DNA from: Akkermansia muciniphila
GTDB taxonomy: Bacteria; Verrucomicrobiota; Verrucomicrobiia; Limisphaerales; BJHT01
Assembly (NCBI GenBank): GCA_945861535.1
Contig: CAMAUZ010000040.1
Span: 1-64,000 of the forward strand
Direction: 5' to 3'
Length of the DNA: 64,000 nt
The position numbers and the translations under genes were made by a program. Below, one piece after another: positions 6,238-54,500 of the stretch; position 1 is the stretch's first letter; each line of letters begins with the position of its first letter. Below the pieces are notes generated by a model. That model was not told the DNA's origin. It saw only the letters and a program-made list of their open reading frames with translations, and made no database searches.

Positions 6238-6365
6238 GGCCGCTGGAAGAAATATGCTGGCCTCCGTCATCTGGCAAGGGCGGATATTACGAACCGACGA
6301 AAGGAGAGGTGAGGCGCTTGCCCCGCCACGGTCCTCCGCCTAGCCTCCGAGCAGCTAAAGTCACC

Positions 6366-7838
6366 ATGAAACACACGCAAAAAGCCATCACGCGACGCGC
6401 GTTTGTCGCCGGTTCGTCAGCCGCCGTGGCCGGGGTTCTCATCGACACTCGCGCCAGCGAAGCCGCGCAAGCCGCGGGGCCGTTTCAGGCGATGGGCACG
6501 CGCGCGGGTGAGGTGACCGACACAACGGCCATCGTCTGGGCCCGGCTCACGGCTGCGCCGACGCGCAACCACAGCGGCGTGGTCATTCCCAAGCGCGCGA
6601 AGGACGAGGCGAAGCGGGGCAAGTCGGAATCGAAGGTGAATGTGCCGGTGGAGCAACTCGAAGGGGCGTGTCCCGGTGCGCGAGGGCGTGTGCAGTTGCG
6701 CTACGGCACCCGCGAGGATTTGAGCGATGCGAAGGTGACGGAGATTGCGGTGGCGGCGGCGGAGAATGACTTCACCTGCCACTTCAAGCTGGGCGGACTG
6801 CAGCCCGGGACGGTGTATCATTACGCGAGCGAGCTCCCCGGTGCCGCGAAGGAGACGGCGTTTCGCGGGAGGTTCGAAACGGCACCGGCGCCCGCTGCGC
6901 CGGGCAACCTCCGCTTCTGCGTGATGACCTGCCAGGGCTACCCCGACCGCGGCCATCCCGACGGGCACCCCATTTATCCCGCGATGGGCGAGTTCAAACC
7001 GCAGTTCACCTGCCTCACCGGCGATCTCGTTTACTACGACAACGATGAACCGGTCGCGGTGACGGAGCGGCTCGCGCGCTATCATTGGGAACGAATGTTC
7101 AGCCTGCCGCGATTGATTGAGTTCAATCGGAACCACTCGACCTACTGGCTGAAGGACGATCACGACACTCTCAGCAACGACTCAGGGCCAGGCGCGACGA
7201 TGGGTGAGTTCACCTTTGCGCAGGGACAGAAAATTTTTCAGCAACAGGCGCCGATGAACCACGACGGCCCGAGCTACCGCACCGTCCGCTGGGGCCGCGA
7301 CCTGCAAGTGTGGTTCACCGACGGCCGCGATTTTCGCTCGAAGAACAAATCACCCGACGGCCCGGAAAAAACTATCTGGGGTGCGGAGCAGAAGGCGTGG
7401 TTCAAGCGCACCGTGAAGGAGAGCAACGCGAGGTGGAAAGTGCTCGTCTCGCCCACGCCGCTGGTCGGTCCCGACCGGAAAAACAAGCGGGACAACCACG
7501 CCAACGAAGGCTTCACCCACGAGGGCGACGAACTCCGCGCGTGGCTGAAGGCCCACGTGCCGGACAATTTCTTCGTCATCTGCGGCGACCGCCACTGGCA
7601 ATACCACTCGGTGCATCCCGCGACGGGCGTCCACGAATTCAGCGCCGGCCCGGCGAGCGATGAGCACGCGAGCGGCTCGCCCGGCCACGACCCGAAGATT
7701 CACCAATTCCACCGCGTCCGCGGCGGCTTCCTCGCCGTCACCCTGCGGCGCGAGGGCGCGCAGAGCCGCATCCTCTTCGAGCACCGCGATGTGATGGGGA
7801 AGGTGGTTTACTCGTGGAATGCAGCGCGTCCGATCTGA
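6366..7838 (+). CDS. PhoD-like alkaline phosphatase/metallophosphatase, Tat-exported
   Basis: The frame is open from 5475, but that part is antisense to the pseudopilin gene; the start at 6366 gives 490 residues beginning with a twin-arginine signal (AITRRAFVAGSSAAVAG). An N-terminal PhoD-type fibronectin-like domain (GEVTDTTAIVWARL to YHYASELPG) precedes the calcineurin-like phosphoesterase domain. Metal-site candidates are CVMTCQGYPD, TGDLVYYDND, WLKDDHDTLSNDS, CGDRHW and the final HEFSAGP. The family (alkaline phosphatase D) is a Ca/Fe-dependent phosphodiesterase/phosphomonoesterase working outside the cytoplasmic membrane. Length is normal. The gene runs away from the pseudopilin gene and is alone in its transcription unit. 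Confidence 0.85.
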   Translation: MKHTQKAITRRAFVAGSSAAVAGVLIDTRASEAAQAAGPFQAMGTRAGEVTDTTAIVWARLTAAPTRNHSGVVIPKRAKDEAKRGKSESKVNVPVEQLEGACPGARGRVQLRYGTREDLSDAKVTEIAVAAAENDFTCHFKLGGLQPGTVYHYASELPGAAKETAFRGRFETAPAPAAPGNLRFCVMTCQGYPDRGHPDGHPIYPAMGEFKPQFTCLTGDLVYYDNDEPVAVTERLARYHWERMFSLPRLIEFNRNHSTYWLKDDHDTLSNDSGPGATMGEFTFAQGQKIFQQQAPMNHDGPSYRTVRWGRDLQVWFTDGRDFRSKNKSPDGPEKTIWGAEQKAWFKRTVKESNARWKVLVSPTPLVGPDRKNKRDNHANEGFTHEGDELRAWLKAHVPDNFFVICGDRHWQYHSVHPATGVHEFSAGPASDEHASGSPGHDPKIHQFHRVRGGFLAVTLRREGAQSRILFEHRDVMGKVVYSWNAARPI

Positions 7839-7913
7839 AGTCGCCACGCCTTTGAGCAAGGCCAGCGTGGTAACTCTCCGGAACGGTCCATTCGATTGGC
7901 GAGCTTGCCATGA

Positions 7914-8042
7914 AAAAAGAAAACCGGCGGGAAGATGATCCCCGCCGGTTTCCGTTTTAGAAACGCTTTTGAACCGGTGTCCACGCATGGCGCGGAGAAA
8001 GAACGGTTTGCGCCTCTAACTTTGTCTTGATTCCAATTTAGA
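7914..8042 (-). ncRNA. Candidate tracrRNA of the type II CRISPR locus
   Basis: Reading the minus strand, positions 8038-8020 (AATTGGAATCAAGACAAAG) are complementary to nucleotides 2-20 of the CRISPR repeat read as GCTTTGCCTTGATTCC..., with only one mismatch (at 8025). Going 3' of this anti-repeat there is a GC hairpin (GGCGC...GCGCC, about 8012-7990) and then an 11-bp stem (7951-7921) followed by TCTTTTTT on the minus strand, a strong intrinsic terminator. Anti-repeat, stem-loops and terminator in about 130 nt, divergent from and just upstream of cas9, is the standard tracrRNA arrangement. It also fixes the array transcription direction as minus. The exact 5' end and promoter are not visible; they would lie inside the cas9 5' region. 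Confidence 0.85.
7919..7958 (-). terminator. Intrinsic terminator (tracrRNA end)
   Basis: Arms AAACCGGCGGG (7921-7931) and CCCGCCGGTTT (7941-7951) form an 11-bp stem with a 9-nt loop. On the minus strand the stem is followed by TCTTTTTT (7920-7913), the stronger U tract. On the plus strand it is followed by CCGTTTT, so weak bidirectional use is possible for anything read through from the left. Confidence 0.8.
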
Positions 8043-8067
8043 CGTCCGGAAACTGCCCGTTCATTCC

Positions 8068-11000
8068 ATGAACGACAAGGAACAAATCTCCGGCAGCTCC
8101 AACATTTACGACCTCATGGTCAAAAACTTGATGTCACCAAAAGTAGAAGGCGGCAGCGGGCTTTCAGCAGAAGAAGCAACAAAAATTGCCGTACGCGCTT
8201 TGCAGAAATTGAAGGGAGAATCAGCCGACATCGAACTAGCCTTCGATGTCGGGCACAGCTCCCTCGGCTGGGCCGTGCTGCAAACCACCCCAAACTCTCA
8301 AGCCTCAACCCTCAACTTGCTCGGTTGCGGTGTCGTGACCTTCGGAGCCGACGATTGCCTCGCCAGCAAACGCCGGTTGTTCCGGCGACAGCGTCGGCAT
8401 GCACGGGCCACGCGCCAACGCATTGAGCGTCTGGAGAAACTGCTCGCCCACCTCGGGGTCATGGGCGCGGAGCAATTGAAGTCAAAGCACACTCAGGCCG
8501 GCGGCCACTCCGCACCGTGGCTGCTCGCCGCGCGGGTCCTCGCCAGTAAAGGCGATGCGAAACATCTGCTGACCTGGCCGGAACTGTGGGACGTGCTCCG
8601 CTGGTATGCCCACAACCGCGGCTATGATGGCAACAAACGCTGGAGCGCCGCCGAAGCCGACAGCGAGGCCGCCAAGGAAGATTCTGAAAAGGAGCAAAAC
8701 GCGCGGAGCCTGATGGAGAAGTTTGCCACGACCACCATGGCAGAAACCTTTTGTCAGCATCTCAATCTCGATCCGCTCGGTGCCAAGCAAGCCTCGGCCA
8801 TACGCTTCAAAGGACTCAATGCTGCCTTTCCACGCGAGGGCGTCGAGGCCGAGGTGCGCCGCGTCCTGCAAGCTCACTTCGGCAAGCTGCCCAAGGTGGA
8901 CAGCCAGTTCGAGCAAGCCCTGTTTGACAACTGGCAGGCCATCCCCTGCCCTGACATCAAACTCCCCAAGCGTTTCCAAGGCGGCTTGCTCTTCGGCCAG
9001 CTCGTGCCGCGCTTCGACAACCGCATCATTTCCAAATGCCCCGTCACCGGGCAGAAAGTTCCCTCCCGCAACTGCCCCGAGTTCTTTCGTTTCCGTTGGG
9101 CGATGCAGCTTGCGAACATCCGCGTCGGCAAAATGGGCGACCGTGATCTGCGACCCTTGACGGCAGAGGAGCGCACGAAGCTCGACATCCTCATGCGCGC
9201 CCAAGGCTCGCTCACTCCGGGTGAACTCAAGAAGGCCGTCCGCGATCTCACCGGTTCCGCGCGGGACAATCTCGATACGATGCTTATGCACCCGGACGCC
9301 AAGGACGCCTTGCTGCTGGACCCCGCGCAAAAGCTTGTCACCTCCGACAAGCTCAAGACGCTCTGGCCCCTGCTGCCAGCTCGCATCCAGAAGCGCGCCC
9401 GTGGCCAATGGCGGCGCAGCAAGATGCTCACCTTGGAAAAGCTCCGCGCTCAAGCCGTGCAACTCGGCGAGTCGGTGGATGCCTTCGACGCCGAGGTGCA
9501 ACGCCTGCTCGACTCGGGCAATACCAAGAAAACTCGCAAGCAAGGCCAGCTCACCCGCGAGTCCCTGCTCAAGGAGCCGTTGAAGATTGAGCGCCTCTCC
9601 GGGCGCGCCGCGTTTGCCCGGCACCTGCTCCAACAAGCCCACGTCGAAGTCATGGCGGGCAAGCATCCCAAGGAGGAAGGCGGCTGCCTCTTCGTCACCG
9701 AGCAAATGCGCGCCAAGCAATTGCTGCGCAGCCTCGACGACCAGACCAACAACCACCTTGTCCGCCATCGCCTGCTGATTCTCCAGCGACTCCTCCGCGA
9801 CCTAGTGGCGGACCCCGCCTTCGCCAACGGGGACAAGGCTCGCGTCGCGCAAGTCACCATCGAGGTCAACCGCGACCTGCGCGAGATGTCAGGCAAGACG
9901 GCCAAGGCCATCGCCCAAGACCTCGGCCTGCGCCTGAGCAATCACAAGCACGTCTCCGCCAAGCTCGAAGAAGCCTTCGAGGGCAAAGACGTAACCATGA
10001 CCGCCGGCCTCATTCGCAAGGCCCGCATTGCCGACGACCTCGGGTGGACCTGTCCCTACACCGGCCAACCCTACGACGCCTTCGATCTCATCACGCGCAA
10101 GGTGGACAAGGACCACGTCATTCCGCGCTCGCAGCGTCCCGCCGACGGACTGGATTCCCTCGTCATCACCTTCTCGGAAGTCAACCGGATGAAAGGCCAG
10201 CGCACGGCCTATCAGTTCATCCAGGAGTTCGAGGGGAAGCCCGTCGAGGGATTGGCGAACCTCTCGCTCGTCACGCTCACGCGGTTCAAACAAAGCGTGG
10301 AAGCCTTGGAGTCATGGAAAGGCCACGACGATGACAAGCGCCGCAAGAAGAAGCGCAAGGAACTCCTGCTCCTCCCCAGCTATGAGGACAAAGGCTTCAC
10401 CCCGCGCGACCTCACCGTCACCTCGCAGCTTGTCCGCCTCGGCGCGCAGGTGATTCAGGGATTCTTCACGTCCGGTAGTGAAGCGCTGCTGCACGTCCCT
10501 ACCACGCCGCCGATTACGCTCCCCCGCATCATCTCCCTCCCTGGCGCGGTCACGGGCGCGGTGCGCAAAGGCTGGCGCGTCCTCGGTTGCCTCGCCCAAG
10601 CCGCCCCGCAGATTCTCGATGAACACGGCGACCCCAAAACCAAGACCGACATCCGCAGCCTCACCCATCTGCACCATGCCCTCGACGCCTGCGTGCTCGC
10701 GCTCGCCGCGCATTCCTTCCCGAACAATGGCGCGCTGTGGGAGGCGATGGTGGTCCGCTCGCCCAACGCGCAGCAGAAGCAGCTCCTCCACGCCACCGGC
10801 TTCTACGAGTTCGACCGGGAGGACAAGCCGCACTTCAAGGAGCTGTCCCCCGAACTCAAGAACCAGATTGCCGCCCGCCTCGCCGAGAAGCGCGTGGTGC
10901 AGCACATCCCGGCGGACATGAGCGGCATGAAGGCCGAGGAGAACACCCGCGGCGTGGTGAAGGTAGAAAAAGGCCGCGTCTATCTCCGCCAGCGAACGCG

Positions 11001-11514
11001 CGACGCCAAGACCGGCAAACTCTCCGTGAAGGAAACCGATGAAGTCGTGGGCAAAGTCGTTGGCCTCGAGCCGCATGACAGCCCCGGCAAGCTGACACCG
11101 ATGAAGGGCGTGCGCGTCATCGCGGACAACTTCGGCGTCGCGATCCTCGACCACGCCCCGAACCCGGAGGACAAGTTCGTCATCATCCCGTGGCACAAGG
11201 TCTGGCACCGGATTGCGGAGTTGAAGGAGAAGAATGAGGGGAAGCCCGTGCGTGTGCTGCGCAACGGCCAGCTCATCCGAGTCAGCCAAGGTACGTACAA
11301 AGGTATTTGGACCGTTTTCTCGGTTAAGAACAATTCTGGGGGAGTTGCCGTGGATGTGGGCTTTACCGACGTTGTCAGGCTTCAAAACAAGACCGAAGGG
11401 CATAAAATAAATGCCTCTTTTGCAACCATAGTAAAAGGAGGACTCGAAATCCTCAAATCCTCCCTCTGTGGCGTGGCCCAAACCAGCTCCGCCCCGATCG
11501 CCAACGTCGGGTAG
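8068..11514 (+). CDS. cas9: Cas9, type II-C-like RNA-guided DNA endonuclease
   Basis: The protein has 1148 residues. RuvC-I is ELAFDVGHSSLGWAV (Asp60), followed by an arginine-rich bridge helix (SKRRLFRRQRRHARATRQR, about 84-105). RuvC-II is VTIEVNRD (Glu599). The HNH domain has CPYTG at 662-666 and DKDHVIPRS with Asp682-His683, then SEVNRMKG. RuvC-III is HLHHALDAC (His870, Asp873). All catalytic residues of both nuclease sites are present, so an active dual-cutting enzyme is expected. The C-terminal ~280 residues should hold the PAM-interacting part. The RuvC Asp normally sits near residue 10; here about 50 extra residues precede it (Ser/Glu/Ala-rich, partly helical). ATG at 8068 has no evident Shine-Dalgarno. 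Alternatives are ATG 8116 and TTG 8209, and only the latter removes the extension. The last ~80 codons are less GC-rich than the rest. Confidence 0.95.
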   Translation: MNDKEQISGSSNIYDLMVKNLMSPKVEGGSGLSAEEATKIAVRALQKLKGESADIELAFDVGHSSLGWAVLQTTPNSQASTLNLLGCGVVTFGADDCLASKRRLFRRQRRHARATRQRIERLEKLLAHLGVMGAEQLKSKHTQAGGHSAPWLLAARVLASKGDAKHLLTWPELWDVLRWYAHNRGYDGNKRWSAAEADSEAAKEDSEKEQNARSLMEKFATTTMAETFCQHLNLDPLGAKQASAIRFKGLNAAFPREGVEAEVRRVLQAHFGKLPKVDSQFEQALFDNWQAIPCPDIKLPKRFQGGLLFGQLVPRFDNRIISKCPVTGQKVPSRNCPEFFRFRWAMQLANIRVGKMGDRDLRPLTAEERTKLDILMRAQGSLTPGELKKAVRDLTGSARDNLDTMLMHPDAKDALLLDPAQKLVTSDKLKTLWPLLPARIQKRARGQWRRSKMLTLEKLRAQAVQLGESVDAFDAEVQRLLDSGNTKKTRKQGQLTRESLLKEPLKIERLSGRAAFARHLLQQAHVEVMAGKHPKEEGGCLFVTEQMRAKQLLRSLDDQTNNHLVRHRLLILQRLLRDLVADPAFANGDKARVAQVTIEVNRDLREMSGKTAKAIAQDLGLRLSNHKHVSAKLEEAFEGKDVTMTAGLIRKARIADDLGWTCPYTGQPYDAFDLITRKVDKDHVIPRSQRPADGLDSLVITFSEVNRMKGQRTAYQFIQEFEGKPVEGLANLSLVTLTRFKQSVEALESWKGHDDDKRRKKKRKELLLLPSYEDKGFTPRDLTVTSQLVRLGAQVIQGFFTSGSEALLHVPTTPPITLPRIISLPGAVTGAVRKGWRVLGCLAQAAPQILDEHGDPKTKTDIRSLTHLHHALDACVLALAAHSFPNNGALWEAMVVRSPNAQQKQLLHATGFYEFDREDKPHFKELSPELKNQIAARLAEKRVVQHIPADMSGMKAEENTRGVVKVEKGRVYLRQRTRDAKTGKLSVKETDEVVGKVVGLEPHDSPGKLTPMKGVRVIADNFGVAILDHAPNPEDKFVIIPWHKVWHRIAELKEKNEGKPVRVLRNGQLIRVSQGTYKGIWTVFSVKNNSGGVAVDVGFTDVVRLQNKTEGHKINASFATIVKGGLEILKSSLCGVAQTSSAPIANVG

Positions 11515-11644
11515 GGCGCGTCTGTCCCCAGCGCGCCGCCGAAAACCCGTAGCCTCCGGGTAGCCGACGGCGGGGTGAGGACACCCCGCCCTACCAGCTA
11601 TGTCCCGTGGGCTGGAACGCCGTTCTTCACTCACGCCAAGTTCG

Positions 11645-11850
11645 TCTGCTCACAACCTTTGTGTGCCACCGGATCCTGTTTCTGTGCCACCGATGACATT
11701 TTGTGTCTCACCCGACGAACTTTTTGTCTCACCGGAAGGTTTTTGTGTCACACCAGAGACTTCCCGGTGCCCTATGAAGACTTCTTCCTCGTCTCCGATG
11801 ACTTTGTGGGCGTCACCCAAGCCTTTTTCCCCGTCATCCAGCGTCGGGAA
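11645..11850. repeat. Degenerate 21-bp tandem repeats (about 9 units)
   Basis: Successive units share the pattern TTTGTGTCTCACCSGA with period about 21 bp (a few units 19-22). For example TTTTGTGTCTCACCCGACGA is followed by CTTTTTGTCTCACCGGAAG and then TTTTTGTGTCACACCAGAGA. Frames through them give heptads such as FCVSPDE or FLCHTRD; on the minus strand they read as VTPTKSSE-like heptads. No frame is clearly a gene. This looks like the decayed remnant of a heptad-repeat coding region or a minisatellite. Confidence 0.6.
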
Positions 11851-12207
11851 CGGGCACCAGGTCTTCGGAATTGCGGCCGCCGCCCTGGAAGATGCAGGCG
11901 AAGACTTCGGAGTCTGGCAACGGAGTGCTGGTCTCGGCCCCGGCGAGTTCCCGGTCGCCTCTGGCGGAGAGATTTAACGCGCGGGTGCAAAAACGCGGCA
12001 ATGCTGACGTGCCATCGCCAAAGCCGAACCGGTTCTGGAACGTCGAACATTGCTCGTACGCCTTCGCGGGTTGGCGTTGACTTCCATCTGCCCGTTCATA
12101 GCCGGCCCACACCGGGTTGGAGATTGGCGCTCCGCAGGAGTGGGTCGCGGGATTTTACGAGGTGCGATTGAAAGTGGGTGAGCGGGTGGCGGTGCTGTCG
12201 GGAATTT

Positions 12208-12298
12208 TGGAGTGCGGTGGCAAGTCGGACGCGACACCGCTTTCGCACGGGCGGGGTGTCCGAAAGCGGTGTCGCGTCCGACTTGCCACCGCACTCCA
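12208..12298. repeat. Long perfect palindrome (38-bp arms, 15-nt loop)
   Basis: The left arm 12208-12245 starts TGGAGTGCGGTGGCAAG; the right arm 12261-12298 ends CTTGCCACCGCACTCCA. The arms are perfectly complementary. Such TTTGGAGT-starting palindromes are a REP-like family; variants occur at 16608-16657 and around 61371-61422 in this window. Confidence 0.85.
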
Positions 12299-12584
12299 TA
12301 GAGCCGCGGCGGCGATTCGCTGCCAGCCGTCGCGCCTCGCACCCGCTTTTAGTCACACCCGATGGTACGAGCCAGGCAAAAATCCCATTGCTTACGCCCC
12401 TCATTTTTATTACTACTTCTCCCGCAGCCCCGTAAACCATCCATTCATCGGTTCCTTCGCGCACTTAACCCGCTGGTGAAACGCCAGCACTGCAACGGCG
12501 AGGGGCCGGTTTGACGGGTCGCCCTGAGTGGGGCGGGCCGGGTGGGGTGTCCGCCGGCTGCACCACAGAAAGGAAGCAAAACCT

Positions 12585-13517
12585 ATGAGCGAATACTGGG
12601 AAGACATCTATCACCGGGGCCAGCAGACCATCGGCGTGTGGACCACGTTCGCCCCGGCTTTGACGGTCGGCGAGGTGACGCTGGCCAGCCATACCACGGA
12701 CACCGCGGCGTTGCAGACCAAGGCCAACGAGCGCGACGTGCAGCAGGACACGGTGGACGTGGCCCGCGACGCGCGCGACACAAACCTCCGCCTGATGGAG
12801 CAACTGTGTGTCCGTTTCCCGCGCAAACTGGAGGGCGACCTCGCCCCGGCGGACCCCCTGCACGCGGAGATCGCGGACCTGCGGAACATCAACCCGGATA
12901 CGCCGGACACCGTGGCCGCGCGCACGCGGCGGACCATCAGCCTGTGGAACCGGGTCAACACCCAGCGCGCGGCGGCCGTGCCGCCGCTGCCCGCCTTCAA
13001 CGTGGGCGGCACGCTGGTGGCCGCGCTGGACACCGCGTTGACAAGCCAGAACACGTTGCTGCAAAACATCGAGAACGAGCGCGGGAAGCTGACGCAAAAG
13101 CGGGAGTTGCTCCGCGCGCTGGCCGGGAAGGTGGACCGGAACAACAAGCGCTGGTATGCCGCGTGGGAAGGCGAATTTGCCGATGGTTCGGCGGAACAGG
13201 CGGCGCTCGCGCAAATCGACACGGGGGGCCAGACGCCGCCGCCGTCCGCGTTGGAAATCAACACGGCGGTCGTCAACCCACCCACCCAGGTGGTGCTCTC
13301 GTACGTCCCCGGCGGGGGCGACCACGCCACGTCGTTCAAGCTGGTGTGGAAGATCGAGACGGTGGACGCGGACTTCACGCACGAGGCCGTACTGAACCTC
13401 GCCGGACAGACCGTGACGGTGGCGGGAGCCGCCGGGAAGACGGTGAGCTTCAAGGCCCGCGCGACCAACAGCACCGGCAGCACGGACAGCGCGGTGACAC
13501 AGGTGGTGATGCCATAA
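12585..13517 (+). CDS. Coiled-coil plus fibronectin-III-like protein inside the CRISPR locus
   Basis: The protein has 310 residues from ATG 12585, chosen because AGGAAG lies about 8 bp upstream and the earlier in-frame codons look like repeat DNA. No signal peptide. Residues 1-215 are mostly helical with heptad-like patches (TKANERDVQQDTVDVARDARDTN, then LLQNIENERGKLTQKRELLRAL) and include FPRKLEGDLAPADPLHAEI. Residues about 225-310 form an FnIII-like beta-sandwich (VVLSYVPGGG, FKLVWKIETVD, VSFKARATNSTGSTDSAVTQVVMP). It lies between cas9 and cas1 in the same direction, 96 bp before cas1. I do not recognise it as a Cas family. Proteins of this architecture occur elsewhere in Verrucomicrobiota without CRISPR, so it may simply be a passenger. 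Confidence 0.7.
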   Translation: MSEYWEDIYHRGQQTIGVWTTFAPALTVGEVTLASHTTDTAALQTKANERDVQQDTVDVARDARDTNLRLMEQLCVRFPRKLEGDLAPADPLHAEIADLRNINPDTPDTVAARTRRTISLWNRVNTQRAAAVPPLPAFNVGGTLVAALDTALTSQNTLLQNIENERGKLTQKRELLRALAGKVDRNNKRWYAAWEGEFADGSAEQAALAQIDTGGQTPPPSALEINTAVVNPPTQVVLSYVPGGGDHATSFKLVWKIETVDADFTHEAVLNLAGQTVTVAGAAGKTVSFKARATNSTGSTDSAVTQVVMP

Positions 13518-13613
13518 TCGGAACGAGAGTTCAGGGGGAAGGGTTCAGGCGTTCAGGCGAACGCCGACCTTCCTCCTGAACACTGAAACCTAAACCCTTG
13601 GACCTGCGACGCC

Positions 13614-14687
13614 GTGTCCTACCACATTGTCAGCATTGATGCGGCGAACTGCTCCTTGAGCTGTCGCGATGGGCAGCTCACCTGCAAGTCGGCAGAGGGT
13701 GAGAAGAAGCTGCCGATGGAGGACGTGGCGAGCATCATCATCACGAGCTGGTCCGCGCAGATTCACAGCGAGCTGTTCTTGCAGGCGGCGAAGCACGGGG
13801 TGGCGCTCATCATCTGCGAATCGTTCAAACCCGTGTCGCTGGTCCTGCCGGCCAACCGTTCGACGGATACGCTGCTGTCCCGCGCCCTGCTGACCCTGCC
13901 CGAAAAGACCATCACCCGCCTCTGGCAGCGGACCATTGATGCCAAATGCGCCAATCAACTCGCCCTGGCCGAACAACTGGCCCCGGATGACTCGCGGCTA
14001 GCCGCCTTCCGCGCCACGGCGCAGGGCCGGAAGCCACACAAGGAAGCCATCTGCGCGAAGGCCTTCTGGCAAATCTTCGGCACGGTCACCGCCGCCTCTG
14101 GTAGGGATGCGTTGCCGCACGTCCCCAACCTCTCCCCGTCAGCCAGCGATACGATGCGAGCGCCGGACCACGTCGGCGGGGTACCATCGCCTGCCCCAAT
14201 GCCGCCGGAAGGTGGACCCGCGGCGCAACGCGGCCCGACCGGGGATAACTTTACCCGAACCCGCGAGGGGGGCGGATTGAACGATTTGCTCAACTATGGT
14301 TACGCCGTGCTCCTTTCCACCGTCCTCCAGAAGCTTTTCGGCGTCGGCCTCGACCCGACGTGGGGCATCTCACACGCCCCCCGCGAACGCGCCACGCCGC
14401 TGGCCTACGATCTCATGGAGCCGTTTCGCCCGTGCGTGGACTGGCGCGTGTGCCAATGGGTCAAGCAACACCCGGAGCCGAAGGACTGGACCGTGACAAA
14501 GGAGTATCGGCGCTGGGTCACGGGGTTTCCGTTGGAACGCGTGGAATATATGAACTTCACCCTCGATATTCAGGGCGTGATCGAGGGCGTGGTGCGCGGC
14601 TTCCGGCGCGCCGTCCTGGAACACAACGGCAAGTTTTACAAACCTTGGCGGCGGGACGGGGATTGGGAGGTCGAAGATAGCGGATAG
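13614..14687 (+). CDS. cas1: Cas1 integrase with an in-frame insertion
   Basis: The protein has 357 residues from GTG 13614; type II Cas1 is usually about 300. Cas1 inserts new spacers with Cas2. The N-terminal beta domain (MSYHIVSIDAANCSLSCRDGQL, MEDVASIIITSW) is followed by the helical integrase domain. Metal ligands fit Glu144 (HKEAICAKAFW), His254 (WGISHAPRERATPLAYD) and Asp266/Glu269. Residues about 162-208 are a Pro/Gly/Ala-rich block (nt 14097-14237) without counterpart in the family: the normal sequence would run from the FW helix directly to GDNFTRTREGGGLNDLLNYGY. The block includes a palindrome-like GGGATGCG...CGCACGTCCC, suggesting that a REP-like repeat was captured in frame. Catalytic residues are intact, so activity may survive if the block loops out. 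Confidence 0.93.
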   Translation: MSYHIVSIDAANCSLSCRDGQLTCKSAEGEKKLPMEDVASIIITSWSAQIHSELFLQAAKHGVALIICESFKPVSLVLPANRSTDTLLSRALLTLPEKTITRLWQRTIDAKCANQLALAEQLAPDDSRLAAFRATAQGRKPHKEAICAKAFWQIFGTVTAASGRDALPHVPNLSPSASDTMRAPDHVGGVPSPAPMPPEGGPAAQRGPTGDNFTRTREGGGLNDLLNYGYAVLLSTVLQKLFGVGLDPTWGISHAPRERATPLAYDLMEPFRPCVDWRVCQWVKQHPEPKDWTVTKEYRRWVTGFPLERVEYMNFTLDIQGVIEGVVRGFRRAVLEHNGKFYKPWRRDGDWEVEDSG

Positions 14688-14762
14688 AGCATAGGGGATG
14701 GGGTTGCAGGAAGGGAGGCATCGCATTCGCCAGCCACCATTCCCCATCCGCTGCTACCGCAC

Positions 14763-15098
14763 ATGGACACGGAGAAATTCAAAATGGGTTGGCTGCTCGT
14801 CGCGTTCGATCTGCCGGTAAAATCCAAGAAACAGCGCAAGGCCGCCACCGACTTTCGCCAGTTCCTCTTGGATGACGGCTTCCAAATGATCCAGTTCAGC
14901 GTCTATGCCCGCGCCTGCGTCACCTTCGCCCGCCAGGAAACGCATCTCGATCATGTGAAGAAAAATCTTCCCCCGGAAGGGAGCGTCCGCGCCATTTTTG
15001 TGACCCGCGCCCAATGGGAACGCTCCTTCGTGATCCATGGCTCACCCGCCGAAGAGGAGGAAGCGGAGGATTTACCCGAGCAAATCCAGCTCTGGTAA
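14763..15098 (+). CDS. cas2: Cas2
   Basis: The protein has 111 residues from ATG 14763 (ATG 14784 is an alternative that starts MGWLLVAFDLPV, the usual family N-terminus). The beta-strand WLLVAFDLPV carries the conserved Asp16. The ferredoxin-like fold continues with RQFLLDDGFQMIQFSVYARAC and VRAIFVTRAQWERSFVIHG, and the acidic tail EEEEAEDLPEQIQLW is typical of type II Cas2. It works with Cas1 as the structural core of the integration complex. It lies 75 bp downstream of cas1, in the same operon, and 52 bp before the first CRISPR repeat. Confidence 0.93.
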   Translation: MDTEKFKMGWLLVAFDLPVKSKKQRKAATDFRQFLLDDGFQMIQFSVYARACVTFARQETHLDHVKKNLPPEGSVRAIFVTRAQWERSFVIHGSPAEEEEAEDLPEQIQLW

Positions 15099-15119
15099 AT
15101 ACCTCCATTATTGCCCCAA

Positions 15120-15162
15120 GGGGCGCAGAGTCAGGCACTTCTGGCCAGTGACTCTGCTCCCC
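15120..15162. repeat. Stem joining the array flank to the first repeat
   Basis: GGGGCGCAGAGTCA (15120-15133) can pair with TGACTCTGCTCCCC (15149-15162; its last 12 bases belong to the first repeat), 13 of 14 positions. In the minus-strand pre-crRNA this would fold the last repeat onto the 3' flank and could end or protect the transcript. Confidence 0.6.
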
Positions 15163-16571
15163 CCGTAATTGGAATCAAGGCAAAGCGTAACGATGCAAGC
15201 ACTATTTTCAGATTTGACTCTGCTCCCCCCGTAATTGGAATCAAGGCAAAGCGTCGTCGGGCGCATTGTCCGCCGGCCGCGTACTCTGCTCCCCCCGTAA
15301 TTGGAATCAAGGCAAAGCTGCTGGCTGGTGCGGTCCTCCCATTCCTCCACTCTGCTCCCCCCGTAATTGGAATCAAGGCAAAGCAAGCCTTCCATGTCAG
15401 CGCGTAGATGGTCGACTCTGCTCCCCCCGTAATTGGAATCAAGGCAAAGCTGGGGCTTGCTCAACACCACCCTGAAAAGCACTCTGCTCCCCCCGTAATT
15501 GGAATCAAGGCAAAGCGCCAGCCGGATGTTTGCCAAGCGTTGACCAACTCTGCTCCCCCCGTAATTGGAATCAAGGCAAAGCGAGGGCGACATCACCCTG
15601 AAACGCTCGCGCACTCTGCTCCCCCCGTAATTGGAATCAAGGCAAAGCGACGCCATCGCCTACCTCCGCGACGTGGCGACTCTGCTCCCCCCGTAATTGG
15701 AATCAAGGCAAAGCACTACCAACGATTGAGAGAATACAGGTTCAACTCTGCTCCCCCCGTAATTGGAATCAAGGCAAAGCGTGGCGATGTGGCGCGAGGT
15801 GCTGCGGGTGACTCTGCTCCCCCCGTAATTGGAATCAAGGCAAAGCAACTGCCTCAAAGACTTCGCCACCGCGCTCACTCTGCTCCCCCCGTAATTGGAA
15901 TCAAGGCAAAGCGTCGTCGGGCGCATTGTCCGCCGGCCGCGTACTCTGCTCCCCCCGTAAGTGGAATCAAGGCAAAGCATCGCTATCGCCCGCGACAAAT
16001 TCGGACCCACTCTGCTCCCCCCGTAATTGGAATCAAGGCAAAGCCACTGGCCTTTCACCTTCCGGCACGCCTAACTCTGCTCCCCCCGTAATTGGAATCA
16101 AGGCAAAGCTGAGAGCACCAGTCTGTCTTTACGCAGCGAACTCTGCTCCCCCCGTAATTGGAATCAAGGCAAAGCCCTCTTCTCAAGTTCAAGGGAATCG
16201 GGCGAACTCTGCTCCCCCCGTAATTGGAATCAAGGCAAAGCACGACCATCGTCGCCCACGACGCCGCCGCCACTCTGCTCCCCCCGTAATTGGAATCAAG
16301 GCAAAGCCCACTCAACGAAGGACGTGGACGCCTATCTACTCTGCTCCCCCCGTAATTGGAATCAAGGCAAAGCTGAGAGCACCAGTCTGTCTTTACGCAG
16401 CGAACTCTGCTCCCCCCGTAATTGGAATCAAGGCAAAGCATGGTGAGAACGAATGCATTGGGCGAGGCGACTCTGCTCCCCCCGTAATTGGAATCAAGGC
16501 AAAGCGGCATCGTTACGCAGGCGGCGGCAACGGCGACTCTGCTCCCCCCGTAATTGGAATCAAGGCAAAGC
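15151..16571 (-). CRISPR. Type II CRISPR array: 22 repeats of 36 bp, 21 spacers
   Basis: Repeats start at 15151 and recur every 66 bp to 16536, with one 65-bp step after the repeat at 16009. Twenty spacers are 30 bp and one (16045-16073) is 29 bp. In the crRNA orientation inferred from the tracrRNA (minus strand) the repeat begins GCTTTGCCTTGATTCC and ends GGGGGGAGCAGAGT. All repeats are identical except the one at 15943, which has T to G at 15961 on the plus strand. Two spacers occur twice: 15253-15282 equals 15913-15942, and 16110-16139 equals 16374-16403. The array lies immediately 3' of cas2. If transcribed on the minus strand, its leader would be on the right (after 16571). Confidence 0.98.
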
Positions 16572-16601
16572 GCATCAGAACGCGCCCTGTTCATTGAACG
16601 T

Positions 16602-16661
16602 CTTCGCTTGCCGCATTTGGAGTCAAGGCTAGGCCGCCTTGACTCCAAATGCGGCAACCGG
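16602..16661. repeat. Degenerate terminal repeat that is one arm of a 22-bp perfect hairpin
   Basis: Exactly about 30 bp after the last repeat, 16602-16633 aligns with the CRISPR repeat (CGCATTTGGAGTCAAGGCTAGGC against CGTAATTGGAATCAAGGCAAAGC over the best 23 bp, 18 identities). The same segment is the left arm of a perfect inverted repeat: 16608-16629 pairs with 16636-16657 around loop TAGGCC, followed by a second small stem and GGTTTTT. It may be a leader-end degenerate repeat, or a REP-like palindrome (TTTGGAGT core) that happens to resemble the repeat. Confidence 0.65.
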
Positions 16662-16942
16662 GTTTTTCGCCGGATTCAGGTAAATCCGTACATCTCTCTC
16701 CATCCTTTGCCCCGCCAAGGCCACCTCAAGATTTGAAAATACCCGACGGTTCAATGAGCGGCTCAACTCCTACAAGAGGCGGCGGGAAGGAGGACGACTG
16801 CGCGGCACCACGGGCGCAATTAAAGGTCGCAGAATCCGCGCGTTGAGCATCACACTGTTCCATCCTGCGACCGGGCGCGGCGCGAGCAGCAGACGCCCAC
16901 CGTTCAACTTATAATCCGAGACAACCGCGACGCCTCCAAGCC
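16662..16942. other. Possible CRISPR leader region, otherwise no gene seen
   Basis: If the array is transcribed on the minus strand, its promoter and leader should lie here. The segment 16680-16760 is somewhat richer in A/T than its surroundings, but I cannot point to clear -35/-10 boxes. No ORF with coding character is present. Confidence 0.35.
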
Positions 16943-17716
16943 ATGACCTTCAATACCCTTACCCGCCGTCACTTTCTCCGCACCACGGGAACCGCTCTGG
17001 CACTGCCGCTGTTGGAGTTTCCCACCCACGCCGCGGGCATCCCGCAGACGCTGGCGGAACTCTGGGCCGATTTCGATCCGCGCAGGGAACCGCTCGAAAT
17101 CGAAATCCTCAAGGCGTGGGAACAGGAGGGCGTGGTTTGCCGGCTGATCCGCTATCAGGTCGGCGTTTTCAAAGGCGCGCCGGCGCGGGTCGCCGCGTTC
17201 TATGCGTTTCCGAAGGGCGGGACAAAACTCCCGGCCCTCGTCGAGCTGCACGGCGGCGGGCAGTCGGCTTCGCTCAACAGCGTGGTGACTTATGCCAAGC
17301 GCAGGTATGCGGGCATTTCGCTCAACTGGGGCGGGAACAAACTGAACTTCGGCGGCGCGCCGGTGACTTACGATGGGCCGCAGACTGACTGGGGAAAACT
17401 CGACGCCACGCATCCGCCGCAGCGCAACAAGGCGAACCATTTCGCCGGCTCGCTCGCGCCGGACGAATACACGCTCGACGCGGTGGAATCGCCGCGGAAC
17501 AGCAACTGGTTTCTGGTGCTGATGGCCGCCCGCCGCGCCATCACCTTTCTCGAACAGCAGCCGGAAGTGGACGCGACGCGCATCGGTGCGCACGGGCATT
17601 CCATGGGTGGCAAGCTCACGACCAATCTCGCGGGGATCGACCCACGGATCAAAGCCGCCGTGCCAGTGGAGAAGTTTAGCCACAGCACCGGGAATCTGCC
17701 GGAGTTGCTCGGTTGA
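16943..17716 (+). pseudogene. Tat-exported alpha/beta-hydrolase (acetyl-xylan-esterase-like), 3'-truncated
   Basis: An N-terminal twin-arginine signal (LTRRHFLRTTGTALALPLL) precedes an alpha/beta-hydrolase core: PALVELHGGGQS (oxyanion-hole strand), GISLNWGGN, and the nucleophile elbow GAHGHSMGGKL (Ser in GHSMG). PVC relatives of this dienelactone-hydrolase/acetyl-xylan-esterase group continue for well over 100 residues to the catalytic Asp and His. Here homologous-looking sequence stops at GIDPRIKAAVP, and after 15 unrelated residues (VEKFSHSTGNLPELL) the frame ends at 17716. Without Asp/His it should be inactive. The lost 3' end is replaced by repeat-rich DNA (17717-18545). Confidence 0.72.
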
Positions 17717-23963: not shown

Positions 23964-24235
23964 GCGCCACTCCGCCGAACCCGCCTCACCCGCAAACGCC
24001 ATGAAAACCGCACTCCAACAAGGGAATTGGAAAACCACGGATGGACACCGATGAACACGGATTCTGAAAGCGCCGTTGCCGCCGACGTGAGGAGAACCCG
24101 AGCGCCGCAACGGCGCAGCATGGGGCCAGCGTACCCGGAACACGGTGGGGGGACGTTGGCAGCAAGCGGAGCGGGGCCGAGGGAGGCGCAGGAGCGGGGC
24201 AGCGGAATTTTGGGCAAAGGAATGGAGGCAAAGGA
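23964..24235. repeat. Intergenic REP-like sequences
   Basis: 24027-24065 carries the ATGGACACCGATGAACACGG motif that recurs widely in intergenic DNA of PVC genomes (recalled, not searched). 24083-24110 is half of a GCCGACGTGAGGAG palindrome. 24205-24292 is an inverted repeat built on CAAAGGAATGGAGGCAAAGG and its complement, whose right half overlaps the open frame of the next gene. Confidence 0.55.
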
Positions 24236-27200
24236 ATGAAGACAAAAAGTTTCCCCGTCCCCATTCCTTTGCCTCCATTCCTTTGCCAAATCCGTTTCGG
24301 CGAATGGGGTTCAAATTCGGGTTGGCTGCCGTGCCTTCTTCGGGCCGTTGTCGCCGTTGGCGGGCGGACTTCCTCGCGAGACGCGCACGTTTCAACCAGC
24401 GCCAATTGCGGTCCCCGTTTGCGTCCCTTCGCCTCCCTCCTGCTCCTCAGCCTCGTGCTCCTGTTGGCCGGCGGTCGCGTTCACGCCGCGCCCGCGAAAC
24501 CGAACCTCGAGGCCGCCGTGATCACCGCCGGCACGAGCATCGTCGGCACCGACGGCCGCAACTGGGCCTACGTCGTGTGGCAATCCCCCGGCGCGGCCAC
24601 GCTCCAAGGCAAGGCCTTCGCCGTGTATTTGCAAACCGCGCCCGCCGGCACCTTCACCCGCCAGGCCATCGTCAGCCCCACCGCCGACGTTCCCGCCCTC
24701 GCACTGCTTGCCGCGCGCGCCGCCACTCTCCGTGCCGACAACGCCGAACTGGATCGCAACCTGCGCGACCTCCTCCGCCGCAAATCCTGGGCCGGCTCCA
24801 CGAATACCAACGGCCTCGCCGCCAATCTCTCCACCTTCGACTCCAAACCCCTGCCGGTAAAAATGTCCGCCGTCCTCGGCCGCGCCCTGCAAAGCGCCGA
24901 CGCCCTCAGCGCCGTGCAACTCCTCGCGCCCCAACATCCCGCCCTCCGCATGGCCCTGGGCCGCGCGTGGGCCGGGATACTGCCACCCGGAGCGGGGCCG
25001 ATGGTCCTCGAAATCCGTGAATGGGTGAGCGGCGCGGCGGGGGGCGTTCTGGGCCGCGTCACGCTCGTCCCCGGCCAGGCGATCACGCTCGTGTCGCCCG
25101 GCCGCATCGTGCAGGTGCCGGATTTGAAACCCTCCGGCGATCTCACCATCAAGCTGCGCTGGGCCGCGCCCGATGCGCTGCGCCGCCTGCAGCAGCATGT
25201 GCTCGGCTTCCGCGTTTATCGCGTGCGGCTGGAAGATGCCGGCGGTCTCGCCCTCAACGCCAGCGCGGCCCAGCTCACCGCCTGGATCAATTCCCATCCC
25301 ACCGTGGTGCAGCCCGTCAACGACGCCCCGGTGCCCATCGCCAAATTGTTCGCGGACGCCGCCGTGGACAATTTCTCCTTCGACACCGGCGACCGTCGCA
25401 CGTTCTTCGTCGCCGACGATGCCCACCGCCTTGCGCCGCTCACCGAGGCGGCGAACAGCCCGCGCGCGCCCGGCTTCAACGCGGGACAACGCTGTCGTTA
25501 TTGGGTCGCCGCCGTCGATCTGCTCGGCCGCGTCGGCCCGCCCTCGCCGCTGTGCGAGGGCATTGCTGAACGCACCATTCCCCCGGATGTCCCCGGCAAT
25601 CTGACCGTGACGGAGCGGCCCGTTGGCCCGAATGGCGAGCGCCAGCTCGTGCTGCGTTGGAAGACCAATGCCCTGCCCGCCGGCGTCGCGAACCGCACCA
25701 CCAGCCGTTATGCCATCTACCGCGGGCCGGTGCCGGACGGCATGCCCGCGTCGCTCGCCACGCTGGAAGATCCGGCGCAATTCAAAACGCTCGCGCCCAT
25801 CGCCTTCATCACCGAGGGGCTGGCCGGCGCCGATGGCCATCTGCGCTTCACCGACAACGGGCTGGCGCCCACCGCCGGCAACACGGACCGCAGCGTGTGG
25901 TACGCCATCACCGCCCTGCACGACACCCAGTTGGACTGGTTCGCCGCCGCGCCCGGCGTGCCCGCCAATCCCCACGAACTCGTCCAAAGCGCCCCCAGCC
26001 CGCCAGCGTTCGGCATTTTCCGCGACCGCACCGGCCCCGCCGCGCCGACCGGCGGCGTGTATGTCAACTGCGACAAGCTCGTGACCCAGGCCGTGCTGCC
26101 TGTGACCACCGCGCCGCGCGTGTCCGCCGTCGCCGATGCCAGCCGCGCGCATATCCGCGCCCTCTGCACCCGGCGCAATCGCAGCGTCGTGGCCGCCCGC
26201 TTCACCTTCAGCGATCTGCGGGACCCGCCGCCCGCCGGCCTCATCTGGGACACGCAGTGGATCGCCTTTCCGGCCGACGGCGACGAACTCACCTACGAAA
26301 TCTCGTTGCTCAACGCCCAGTCCGACTGGGTCGCCGTCACCTGCGTGACCCTCGACGCGCACGGCTGCCAATCGACGTTGGGCTACGCCGACCGCCAACG
26401 CCCCGCGCTCAATGCCGCTCTGTGGCATGAGTTTCGGTTCGTGACCGGGCGCTTTGCCGCGACGGCGTTTGCCAGCGACTCGACGGCACCCGTGGCGAAC
26501 CTGGCCACGGTCGTGCCGTTCACGAGCACGACGACGATCGGCCCCGGCGTGAAGCGCGGCGTCTTTGCCGCCGCCGAAAATCTCAACGGCCAGACCGTGG
26601 TCCTGCAGCTCCGCCTGCTCACGGCGACCAACTGGAGCACCTTTGCCACCGCGCAGGTGGTGAACCACGCCGTCGTGTTCCCCTTCATCGTGCCCGAGGG
26701 CTTGTTCCAATACCGCGCCGCCAAACTGCCCGTGGGCGGCGATTGCCAGTGCGCGCACGACGCCCGGCCCGTGGACGCGCTGGAAATCCAACCCGTCACC
26801 GTCTTCCTCAACCTCCCCGCGACCACCAAGGAATGGCGCATCTTCCGCGCTGCCGACGGCGGACCGCTGGCCTTGGTGAAAAGCGGGGTCGTGGATCTCA
26901 CGCAGGGCGCGGTGGACAGCGTGATCGCGCAGGACAAGGCCATGCCGCCGAATGGCGCGCGGCTGCGTTACTTCGGCCAGTGCTTCGATCAGAACCACAA
27001 TCCCAGCCCGTTGAAATTTCTCGCCGAAGTGCAGCTCCTGCCCGCGCCCGCCACGCCGGTGCTCAATCCGCCGGAGTTCATCGTCGCGGGCGGCCAGGAC
27101 CAGGTGAAACTGAAATGGTTCTGCCCCACGCCGGGCGTGCAGCGCTTCCGCGTCATGCTGCTGGCGCTGGGCGCGGGTGCGACCGCGAACAAGGCCGCGC

Positions 27201-48148: not shown

Positions 48149-48402
48149 GGTGCAGCGGCGAAGTGCGGGTGAAGAGCGCGCCAGAAGCGCGCCGGAGCGC
48201 CGAGCATTGCTCGGCCTGACCGAGTGCGGGCCGTTCGAGCCGAGCGATGCTCGGCGCTCCGGCGCATTGGGGGCGAAAGCCTTGTAGCCGCCGACGTGAG
48301 GAGGCGGACGGCCCCGCCCAGCGCCCGATCCGCCTCCTCACGTCGGCGGCTACGACGGAGGCTCATGACGATTATCCACCCGCCTGCGCTCCTGAGCGGC
48401 CC
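48149..48402. repeat. REP-like palindrome region upstream of the ABC exporter
   Basis: Perfect 25-bp arms at 48284-48308 and 48329-48353 (outer sequence GTAGCCGCCGACGTGAGGAG) with a 20-nt loop. A second palindromic motif (GCGCCGGAGCGCCGAGCATTG, 48188-48209, and its complement GCGATGCTCGGCGCTCCGGCGC, 48243-48264) lies next to it. The region separates hppA's 3' end from the start of the ABC exporter. Confidence 0.75.
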
Positions 48403-51523: not shown

Positions 51524-54500
51524 GCACGAAGATCAAAATCTTCCTCTCGCATAACAGCGCGGATAAACCCGCGGTCGAATCGTTGGCCTTACGGCTGGGC
51601 CAGGAGGCCGACATCGATCCGTGGCTCGACAAGTGGAATCTTATCCCGGGCCAGCCGTGGCAGGAGGAACTCGAAGAGGCGATCAAGGGTTGCACCGGTT
51701 GCGTGATCTTCATCGGCCGGGGCGATCCACAGAGTGGCGTCATCGGCCCGTGGCAGAACGCCGAGATGCGCGCGCTCATCAGCCGTCAGGTCTCGGAACG
51801 GGGCAGCAAGTTCGCGGTCATTCCGGTGCTGCTGCCGGGTGCGGAACGCGGTCAGCGCAGCAGCCTGCCCACCTTCCTCGTGGCCAACACCTGGGTCGAA
51901 TTCCGCCACAATCTCGACGACCCTGACGCCTTCCAGCGCCTCCTCGCCGGCATTCGCGGCAAGCCCATCGGCCCGCCCACCGACAACCGTGCCGCCCTCG
52001 CCACCTGCCCCTACCGCGGCCTGAAATACTTCGACATCGGCGACGCCCACCTCTTCTTCGGACGCGAGGCCGTCACCGAATGGCTGGTGGACGACGTCCG
52101 CAAGCCCCTCCGCGCCGGCAGCGAAGCCCCGCGCTTTGTCGCCATCCTCGGCGCGTCCGGCAGCGGCAAGTCCAGTCTCGCCCGCGCCGGCCTTTATGCA
52201 GCGCTCAAGCAAGGCGCGATCGAAGGCAGCGACAACTGGCTCTTCGTCCCGCCGCTGCGACCGGGAGCGAACCCGCTCGAAAGCCTGGAAATCGAATTTC
52301 TCAAAGCCGCCGCCGGCAGCCCGCACCTCGCTTCCGTTGCCACCCACCTGAAGGAATTGGCCACCAACCCTGCCGCCCTCCATCGCGCCGCCAGGCAGCT
52401 TGTCCCCGATTCCTCACCGCCCCGGCGCGTGTTCCTGTTCGTGGATCAGTTCGAGGAAATCTTCACGGAATGCGACAAGGCCGGGCTGCGCGGCCCGTTC
52501 CTCGCGGCGCTCCTCTATGCTGCTCGCGAACGCGGCGGACCGGTCATCGTCGTCCTCGCCATGCGCGCGGACTTCTACCCGCAGGTCGCCGCGTTCGAGG
52601 AACTGGCCCGCGTCATGGATCAGCACCAGTTCCTCGTCGGCCCCATGAGCGAGGCCGAACTCCGTCAGGCCATCGAAGTCCCCGCCTACCGGGCGGGAGC
52701 GGACTTCGACCCCGGCCTTGTGGACAAGCTCATCGCGGATGTCCTCGGGCAACCCGGTGCTCTCCCGCTGCTCCAGCATGCGCTGGCGGCGCTCTGGCGG
52801 GAACGCGTCAACGGTCGGCAGCTTACCCACGACGCCTACCGAACGATGGGCGGGCTTTCTGGTGCTCTCGAAAAACACGCCAACAAAATCTTTGACGACC
52901 TCACTCCCGAGCAACAGAAGCTCTGCGAACATCTCTTCCTCCGCCAGGTCCACCCCGGCGAAGGCGCGGAGGACACCAAACGCCGCGTGCCGCTCGCGGA
53001 GTTGACCTCGTCCGGCAACCCGGTGGTTGTCGCGAAACTCATCGCCACGCTCTCCCACGAAGACAACCGCCTCATCGTCACCGAGGGCGGGGATGGGCAA
53101 AAAAGCGACGCCCCGGCGGCCTCCGATGCGAAACACAATCTCCACTCCGCGTCTCCGGCCTTTGTCGAAGTCGCGCACGAAGCCCTGATTCGCTCCTGGT
53201 CCCGCCTGCGAAAATGGATTGATGCCGACCGCTCCGGCCTCCGCACCCACCGCCGCCTCACCGAGGCGGCGAAGGAGTGGGAAGACAAACGCCGACATCC
53301 CGAGTTTCTCTATTCCAGCGGACGCCTCGCCATCGCCCGCGAATGGGCCGCGAAACACCGGGACCAACTGGCTAAAATCGAGGACGAATTTCTCGTCGCG
53401 AGCCAGAAAGAAGAGGACCGGGTGGCGCGCGCTAGCAAGTCCATCAAGGTGTTTCTCACGGCCGTGGTCATCGCCCTGCTAGCCGGTGGATTCGGCGTAA
53501 TCTCATCCTGGGTTTGGATTCAGTACCACACCTACACGGCCGAACTTGGCGGCACGGACCGGCCGGACGAACTGGTCATCACCCGCCAGTTGAAGCACGT
53601 CGCCCCGTTAAAGATCTCCACCGGCTTCACCCGCGACCTGCTGCTGGCTGGTGGGGTGACGAATTTTGACTTCAACGTTCCTCATGCGATTTCTGATTGG
53701 GGAACGATCGAGAATCACCTCCACCCGCTCGCCAAAATCCGCCTCCTGTTCGCCACCCGCCTCGACGCCATCGCCGCCGCGGTCGCCTCGGGCAAAGATG
53801 AAGAACTGGCCAGAGTCGTCACCACGGTCAGCCAAGACGCCGTCGCGGATCCCGACATTTCCCTTTTCGCCGCCGCCGATACGAAGGCGTTCGACTACGT
53901 CTTCACCCTGCTCCGCATTGGTGATCCCGCCGCGAAACGCGCCGCCGCGTCGGCGCTGGGCCGGCTAGGGGAGAAGCTGGCGGGCGAGCGGGCGGGAGCG
54001 GTCACGGACGCGCTGCTGGCGGCGCTCAAGGATAACGAGGCGGAGGTAAATATCGCCGCCGCGGAGGCGCTGGGGCAGCTCGGGGAGAAGTTGCCGGGCG
54101 AGCGCCTGGGAGCGGTCACGGACGCGCTGCTGGCGACGCTCAAGGCCAACGAGGCGGCCGTCAAACGCGCCGCCGCGTCGGCGCTTGTCCGGCTGGGGGA
54201 GAAGTTGGCTGGCGAACGTGCGGGAGCGGTCACGGACGCGCTGCTGGGGGCGCTCAAGGACAACGAGGCGGCCGTCAAAGACGCCGCCGCATATGTGCTG
54301 GGCGGGCTGGGGGAGAAGCTGGCGGGGAAGCGTGTGGGAGCGGTCACGGACGCGCTGCTGGGGGCGCTCAAGGACAACGAGGCGTTCGTCAGAAGCGCCG
54401 CCGCGTCGGCGCTGGTCCGGCTGGGGGAGAAGCTGGCGGACGAGCGTGTGGGAGCGGTCACGGACGCGCTGCGGGGGGCGCTCAAGGACAACGAGGCGTT

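Follow-up and report, generated by a model that had tools for sequence, protein, structure and literature searches.

At the cas-distal end of the CRISPR array in the window (the whole stretch of 64,000 nt that was analysed, from a Verrucomicrobia genome), we found a hairpin that, judged from its sequence, would pair the decayed oldest repeat of the array, at the 5' end of the array transcript, with its own perfect inverted copy, and we tentatively propose, with somewhat less than even confidence, that it blocks the formation of RNA from that repeat. A CRISPR array always contains a spare repeat, whose RNA, an extraneous crRNA (ecrRNA), could clog Cas9. The locus contains the following features.

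8068..11514, plus strand, cas9 (TIGR01865, HNH_4, RuvC_III)
12528-13517, ORF of 329 aa between cas9 and cas1
13614..14687, plus strand, cas1 (type II, cas1_NMENI)
14763..15098, plus strand, cas2
7912..8038, minus strand, tracrRNA gene, with the anti-repeat at 8038-8019 and a strong terminator hairpin at about 7953-7919, then a T-run
15151..16571, minus strand, CRISPR array, 22 repeats of 36 nt with spacers of 29-30 nt
16536-16571, R1, the first (oldest) intact repeat of the array

The cas1 and cas2 genes were assigned by profile matches, and the 329-aa ORF had no family match in Pfam, NCBIfam or PADLOC. Because neither csn2 nor cas4 was present among the locus ORFs tested, alongside cas9, cas1, cas2 and a tracrRNA, we regard the locus as type II and II-C-like, with II-C as the most fitting subtype even though none of the models names it; the NCBIfam Cas9d model scored under its cut-off at the Cas9 of the window, and no relatives of Cas1 were found in the viral contigs searched. 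The tracrRNA anti-repeat (minus strand) was complementary to nucleotides 1-20 of the repeat as read on the minus strand (GCTTTGCCTTGATTCCAATT...), which indicated that this strand is the one transcribed into crRNAs and that the tracrRNA lies upstream of cas9. Thus, the hairpin is located at the 5' end of the pre-crRNA, a placement that the original prediction had offered conditionally and that the anti-repeat now fixes. Within the array, two spacers were present twice (15253-15282 is identical to 15913-15942, and 16110-16139 to 16374-16403), which points to duplication within the array or to repeated uptake of the same spacers. Elsewhere in the window, the array finder also flagged direct repeats in a coding-looking region (53994-55625). 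Among the 41 distinct repeats of the repeat family, TTGA[TA]T-like bases occupied positions 9-14, and A32, A34 and T36 were found in 41/41, 37/41 and 38/41, respectively, the TTGA[TA]T-like and A.A.T elements being 16 nt apart in nearly all of them. These shared bases are consistent with the -35 and -10 elements expected for a putative promoter inside each repeat; the -10 of the window's own repeat (CAGAGT) is poor.

The polarity of the array was read from the end repeats of related loci. An end repeat with at least one mismatch occurred at 8/33 array ends on the cas-distal (hairpin) side, as against 1/42 on the cas2 side (L185), in a list whose rule trims end matches by spacing, from which the first repeat of L131 (1 mismatch) is absent, and in which a 10-mismatch match beside N bases in L084 was treated as spurious; internal repeats with at least one mismatch amounted to 23/711 in the related arrays. 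Degenerate end repeats thus gather cas-distally, which indicated that the hairpin side is the oldest end of the array and not the end at which spacers are acquired. As far as these counts from sequence allow, the array appears to gain new spacers at the cas2 side and to retain its oldest repeat where the pre-crRNA begins, in line with the passages of PMC6008519 and PMC12080349 in which II-C arrays are described as growing at the cas2 side. The array polarity led us to reject the hairpin as a leader for Cas1-Cas2, and the suggestion that it guides these proteins places it on the wrong side of the array. In related arrays (e.g., L097, L101 and L192; 15120-15164 in the window), the 3' part of the repeat was followed on the cas2 side by its own inverted copy adjoining the newest repeat. 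Such an inverted copy of at least 9 nt was present in 12/41 arrays (L185 being left out) compared with 0.6% when repeats and flanks were swapped, and it could be the terminator of the array or a Cas1-Cas2 site.

Beyond R1, a spacer-length segment and a degenerate repeat, of which most is one arm of the hairpin, complete the array on its oldest side.

16572..16601, minus strand, S0, a 30-nt spacer-length segment between R0 and the first intact repeat
16602..16634, minus strand, R0, the degenerate oldest ('extra') repeat, 33 nt, with its 5' end at 16634 in the crRNA sense
16608..16629, array-side arm of the hairpin, 22 nt, within R0
16630..16635, hairpin loop TAGGCC, 6 nt
16636..16657, outer (anti-repeat) arm, a perfect inverted copy of the 22 nt of R0, where a guide would lie, immediately 5' of R0
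16591-16599/16749-16757 (span 16591..16757), outer inverted pair of 9 bp enclosing the hairpin

An inverted-repeat scan and a direct count bore out both the 22-bp perfect palindrome and the likeness of its arm to the repeat that had first been noticed, the 23-nt block from the repeat's CGTAATTGG being identical to the repeat at 18/23 positions. A 24-nt block of R0 matched the window's own repeat at 19/24 and the repeat of L188 at 21/24 positions. The expected distance of one spacer held in part: the ungapped register of R0 begins at 16599 and leaves a gap of 27 nt instead of 30, and the gap between R0 and the array becomes exactly 30 nt when a 3-base deletion in the repeat is allowed. The gapped score of R0 was 10.5 against its own repeat and 16.5 against the best repeat of a relative, values that 0/3000 random genomic 33-mers reached (maximum 9.0), in a test that is not blind because the 33-nt length of R0 was chosen from the 30-nt spacing. 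Ungapped similarity at a spacing of 20-45 nt was equalled in 4/20,000 dinucleotide shuffles of the 180-nt flank and in 1/20,000 genomic 180-mers. In the passages of PMC12080349 that define a degenerate extra repeat, it lies 20-45 nt past the last repeat, is more than 70% similar and has an empirical E below 0.01; R0 lies 27-30 nt away and matches 19/24 positions in the block at 4/20,000 shuffles, as scored with our own ungapped score instead of blastn and over the 24-nt block instead of the full 36 nt. Half-repeat remnants one spacer farther out were also observed in L096 and L098 (3/26 arrays at 0/200 shuffles). Taken together, the repeat ancestry and the position of the array-side arm can be counted as shown on sequence grounds, and we conclude that this arm is the decayed oldest repeat. 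Of the 'degenerate leader-side repeat' in the original prediction, the degenerate repeat is thereby retained, and its leader-side placement is contradicted by the end-repeat counts given above. R0 keeps the 5' part that pairs with the tracrRNA in a weakened form (duplex of -18.5 vs -26.6 kcal/mol for the consensus repeat), and it has lost the -10-like 3' end common to the other repeats. The exact 22-nt core of S0 had no match in viral contigs. A candidate pairing of the S0 guide with R1 (a 10-bp helix with G-U pairs) was not taken as special, because its energy of -18.1 is unremarkable beside those of the remaining 21 spacer-repeat pairs, which run from -10.6 to -24.7.

The two arms, 16608-16629 and 16636-16657, were 100% complementary over 22 nt, and an extended stem of 25 nt at 96% could be drawn from 16605 to 16660. 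The hairpin RNA folded at -43.3 kcal/mol, and Rfam returned for it only a sub-threshold match (mir-551). The outer 9-bp pair also folds, with 3 bp more past a bulge, and is weak evidence. The outer arm begins one base 5' of R0, which is where the guide of an ecrRNA would sit. With its 22-bp helix, a stem that 0/200 shuffles produced, the hairpin has the form of an ecrRNA-suppressing hairpin (a helix of at least 12 bp, no more than 180 nt upstream, above chance). Since R0 has already diverged from the repeat and the arms are identical, the inverted copy probably postdates the decay, or else the identity has been kept by selection or correction.

The history of the site was examined in relatives with and without the CRISPR-Cas system, and the following block was delimited.

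7845..16825, inserted CRISPR-Cas block of about 9 kb, with GTCGC at both edges (7840-7844 and 16826-16830)

In G037, a genome of the same genus without a Cas9 match, the left flank (6471-7843) and the right flank (16835-17664) are about 5 bp apart, and G160 likewise has both flanks together, its own Cas9 being elsewhere (empty sites G037:C118 and G160:C93, loci L196 and L197). The adjacency of the flanks in both genomes suggests that the 9 kb was inserted and that the hairpin is part of the insert and not of the chromosomal flank; it occurs only with the CRISPR insert. The comparison of sites with and without CRISPR that had been proposed at the outset thus showed that the hairpin came with the insert. 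The GTCGC pair resembles a target duplication of 5 bp, and the Cas9 fragment of G160, 88% identical and located elsewhere in that genome, suggests that the system is mobile.

We surveyed the oldest array ends of relatives for comparable structures, leaving out arrays with less than 100 nt of cas-distal flank, so that 26 and later 33 arrays were kept, and a 6-mismatch match 876 nt upstream in L193 was dropped as outside the array. A stem score of at least 12 at the array end was obtained in 5/33 arrays (the window, L064, L066, L096 and L188). In L064, perfect 24-nt arms (7736-7834) end 1 nt before the first repeat; in L066, perfect 25-nt arms (14857-14941) end 0 nt before it; and in L073, a perfect 26-nt inverted pair (6295-6378) lies 122 nt from the oldest end of the array. 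The hairpins of L064 and L066 are single-copy in their own genomes, and their inner arm (24 and 25 nt, respectively) takes up exactly the 25-nt guide position of an ecrRNA, the fold leaving no base of this guide unpaired. The cas9 loci of the relatives (624,055 bp) contained four perfect inverted repeats with arms of at least 22 nt and loops of up to 60 nt, and three of the four are those at the oldest array ends of L064, L066 and L073; random pieces of the same three genomes, taken as a control, yielded one such repeat in 163,143 bp. Among the 33 arrays, a repeat-like hairpin arm was found in the window array only, and no exact anti-repeat longer than 9 nt was found within 180 nt upstream of any first repeat.

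These observations can be arranged into a possible course of events. R0, as the oldest repeat, would have begun to decay, and an inverted duplication of R0, the most likely origin of the palindrome, would have followed. A transcript entering the array from upstream would then fold the 22-bp stem (about -43 kcal/mol), in which R0 would be unable to pair with the tracrRNA and the guide-like segment ahead of it would be locked. With R0 locked, no ecrRNA would be formed from the spare end repeat, and Cas9 and tracrRNA would not be wasted. The sense of the crRNAs, the ancestry of R0, the gathering of degenerate repeats on the hairpin side, the weaker pairing of R0 with the tracrRNA and the oldest-end hairpins of relatives all point towards such a trap, as does the published suppression of ecrRNAs in II-C by upstream hairpins and mutated extra repeats (passages of PMC12080349).

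According to the parts of PMC12080349 that concern this suppression (Feussner et al. 2025), II-C arrays avoid extra-repeat RNA by a mutated repeat, an upstream terminator or a hairpin that traps the guide, and in the survey reported there about a quarter of the systems are unexplained as to how ecrRNAs are avoided. The window locus resembles these systems in the position of its hairpin upstream of the oldest repeat and in its mutated extra repeat, its helix is far above the 12-bp threshold used there, and L064 and L066 fit the class in which a hairpin traps the ecrRNA guide. Unlike the cases described in those passages, the window combines a mutated extra repeat with an upstream segment whose perfect pairing partner is that decayed repeat, a kind of hairpin that earlier work, as related there, had not found in II-C. 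Pairing between the extra repeat and a segment directly upstream of it, which would block the tracrRNA, is known from the II-A leader-extra-repeat hairpin (Liao et al. 2022, as described in parts of PMC12080349 and PMC13187072), which is located at the newest, leader end, whereas that of the window is at the oldest end and its repeat is degenerate. The Cas13 (type VI) leader-repeat hairpin, in the account excerpted from PMC13187072, is similar in that upstream RNA and the first repeat form a hairpin that blocks the ecrRNA; that system differs from the window locus in being RNA-targeting, in lacking a tracrRNA and in having its first repeat at the acquisition end. By analogy with these systems, our best reading is that the hairpin would be a variant of those that silence ecrRNAs, trapping the extra repeat itself, in a form that had reportedly not been found in II-C.

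Several results count against this trap. R0 lacks a recognisable -10, and to the right of the array, where the neighbour (16943-17716) is on the plus strand, no gene is directed towards it, so little transcript may reach the hairpin. No long hairpin was found in L131 (G160) and L132 (G024), the two nearest relatives by Cas9 whose array end could be read; the repeat-like arm is confined to the window array; and the genome is rich in palindromes. That R1 might be trapped by an upstream anti-repeat was rejected, the longest complementary stretch being 7 nt, and this too speaks against the trap. The main rival, which we hold to be a real possibility though a doubtful one, is that the structure is a neutral fossil, in which R0 decayed and an inverted duplication, through a template switch or quasi-palindrome correction, gave an accidental palindrome without function. 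R0 seems dead as a promoter and weak for the tracrRNA, so that little would be left to silence, its hairpin was not found in the relatives searched, and the 464 kb of the window's own genome that were sampled contained 45 long inverted repeats (arm of at least 18 nt, loop of up to 60 nt, no more than 1 mismatch), with 18 perfect ones of arm at least 22 nt in the same loop range. However, the palindromes of this genome mostly belong to dispersed families, only 5/45 having arms of which no 14-mer recurs in the 464 kb sampled, and within this sample the hairpin is the sole perfect inverted repeat with an arm of at least 20 nt and a loop of no more than 10 nt; the independent oldest-end hairpins of L064, L066 and L073 also argue against an accident. 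The dispersed families have identical arms and variable loops and occur about once per 10 kb (e.g., 12208-12298, 48284-48353 and 24210-24290), and one of them is GTAG-tagged like known REPs.

The presence of these REP-like families, one with such a tag, would leave room for a REP, MITE or other dispersed palindrome that landed beside the array by chance, and the hairpin is, like the GTAG/CGTC-tagged REPs treated in passages of PMC3733652, a short intergenic palindrome. It differs from them in being single-copy, in its 22-bp stem (the REP stems given there are 5-13 bp) and in its repeat-derived arm. Many identical copies away from CRISPR loci would have marked a REP, and the genome search yielded one occurrence of the hairpin with its 186-bp surroundings in 7.9 Mb; the arm in both directions (with up to 2 mismatches) was found in no other genome among 293 of the order, and no copy was found in viral contigs, plasmids or phages. 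The REP origin raised by the original prediction is therefore very improbable. A plus-strand intrinsic terminator, which would keep cas-operon read-through, antisense to the array, from reaching the esterase-like gene at 16943, fits the extended stem to 16660 followed by GGTTTTTCGCC on the plus strand, and T-rich sequence is also present on the cas-sense side of the L064 and L066 hairpins. We nevertheless consider it unlikely, since the hairpin was not listed by the terminator scan, the T-run begins several bases past the perfect stem, a terminator would need far fewer than 22 bp, there is no T-run beside the L073 stem, and the likeness of the arm to the repeat would be left unexplained. A Rho-independent terminator acting towards the array was rejected, as no U-tract follows in the crRNA sense (the stem is followed by GCGAAGACGTTC) and none was listed by the terminator scan. 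The proposal of a second tracrRNA or anti-repeat small RNA could appeal to the complementarity of one arm to 17/22 repeat positions by direct count. A complete tracrRNA with its terminator already exists at 8038-7912; the anti-repeat arm is sequestered within the perfect stem instead of forming a free anti-repeat with a nexus and a terminator; and the promoter scan listed no promoter-like site near the hairpin. We accordingly give this proposal almost no weight.

Returning to the trap for the extra repeat, it is conceivable, although we put it forward with considerable reserve, that the window holds an extra-repeat trap of the II-A style in a II-C system and that it represents, together with L064 and L066, a repeated and independent origin of perfect palindromes that would seal the oldest end of II-C arrays against the formation of an ecrRNA. 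The repeat/anti-repeat hairpin and the guide-length hairpins of the relatives provide clear test objects for the avoidance of ecrRNAs in II-C and for the origin of palindromes.
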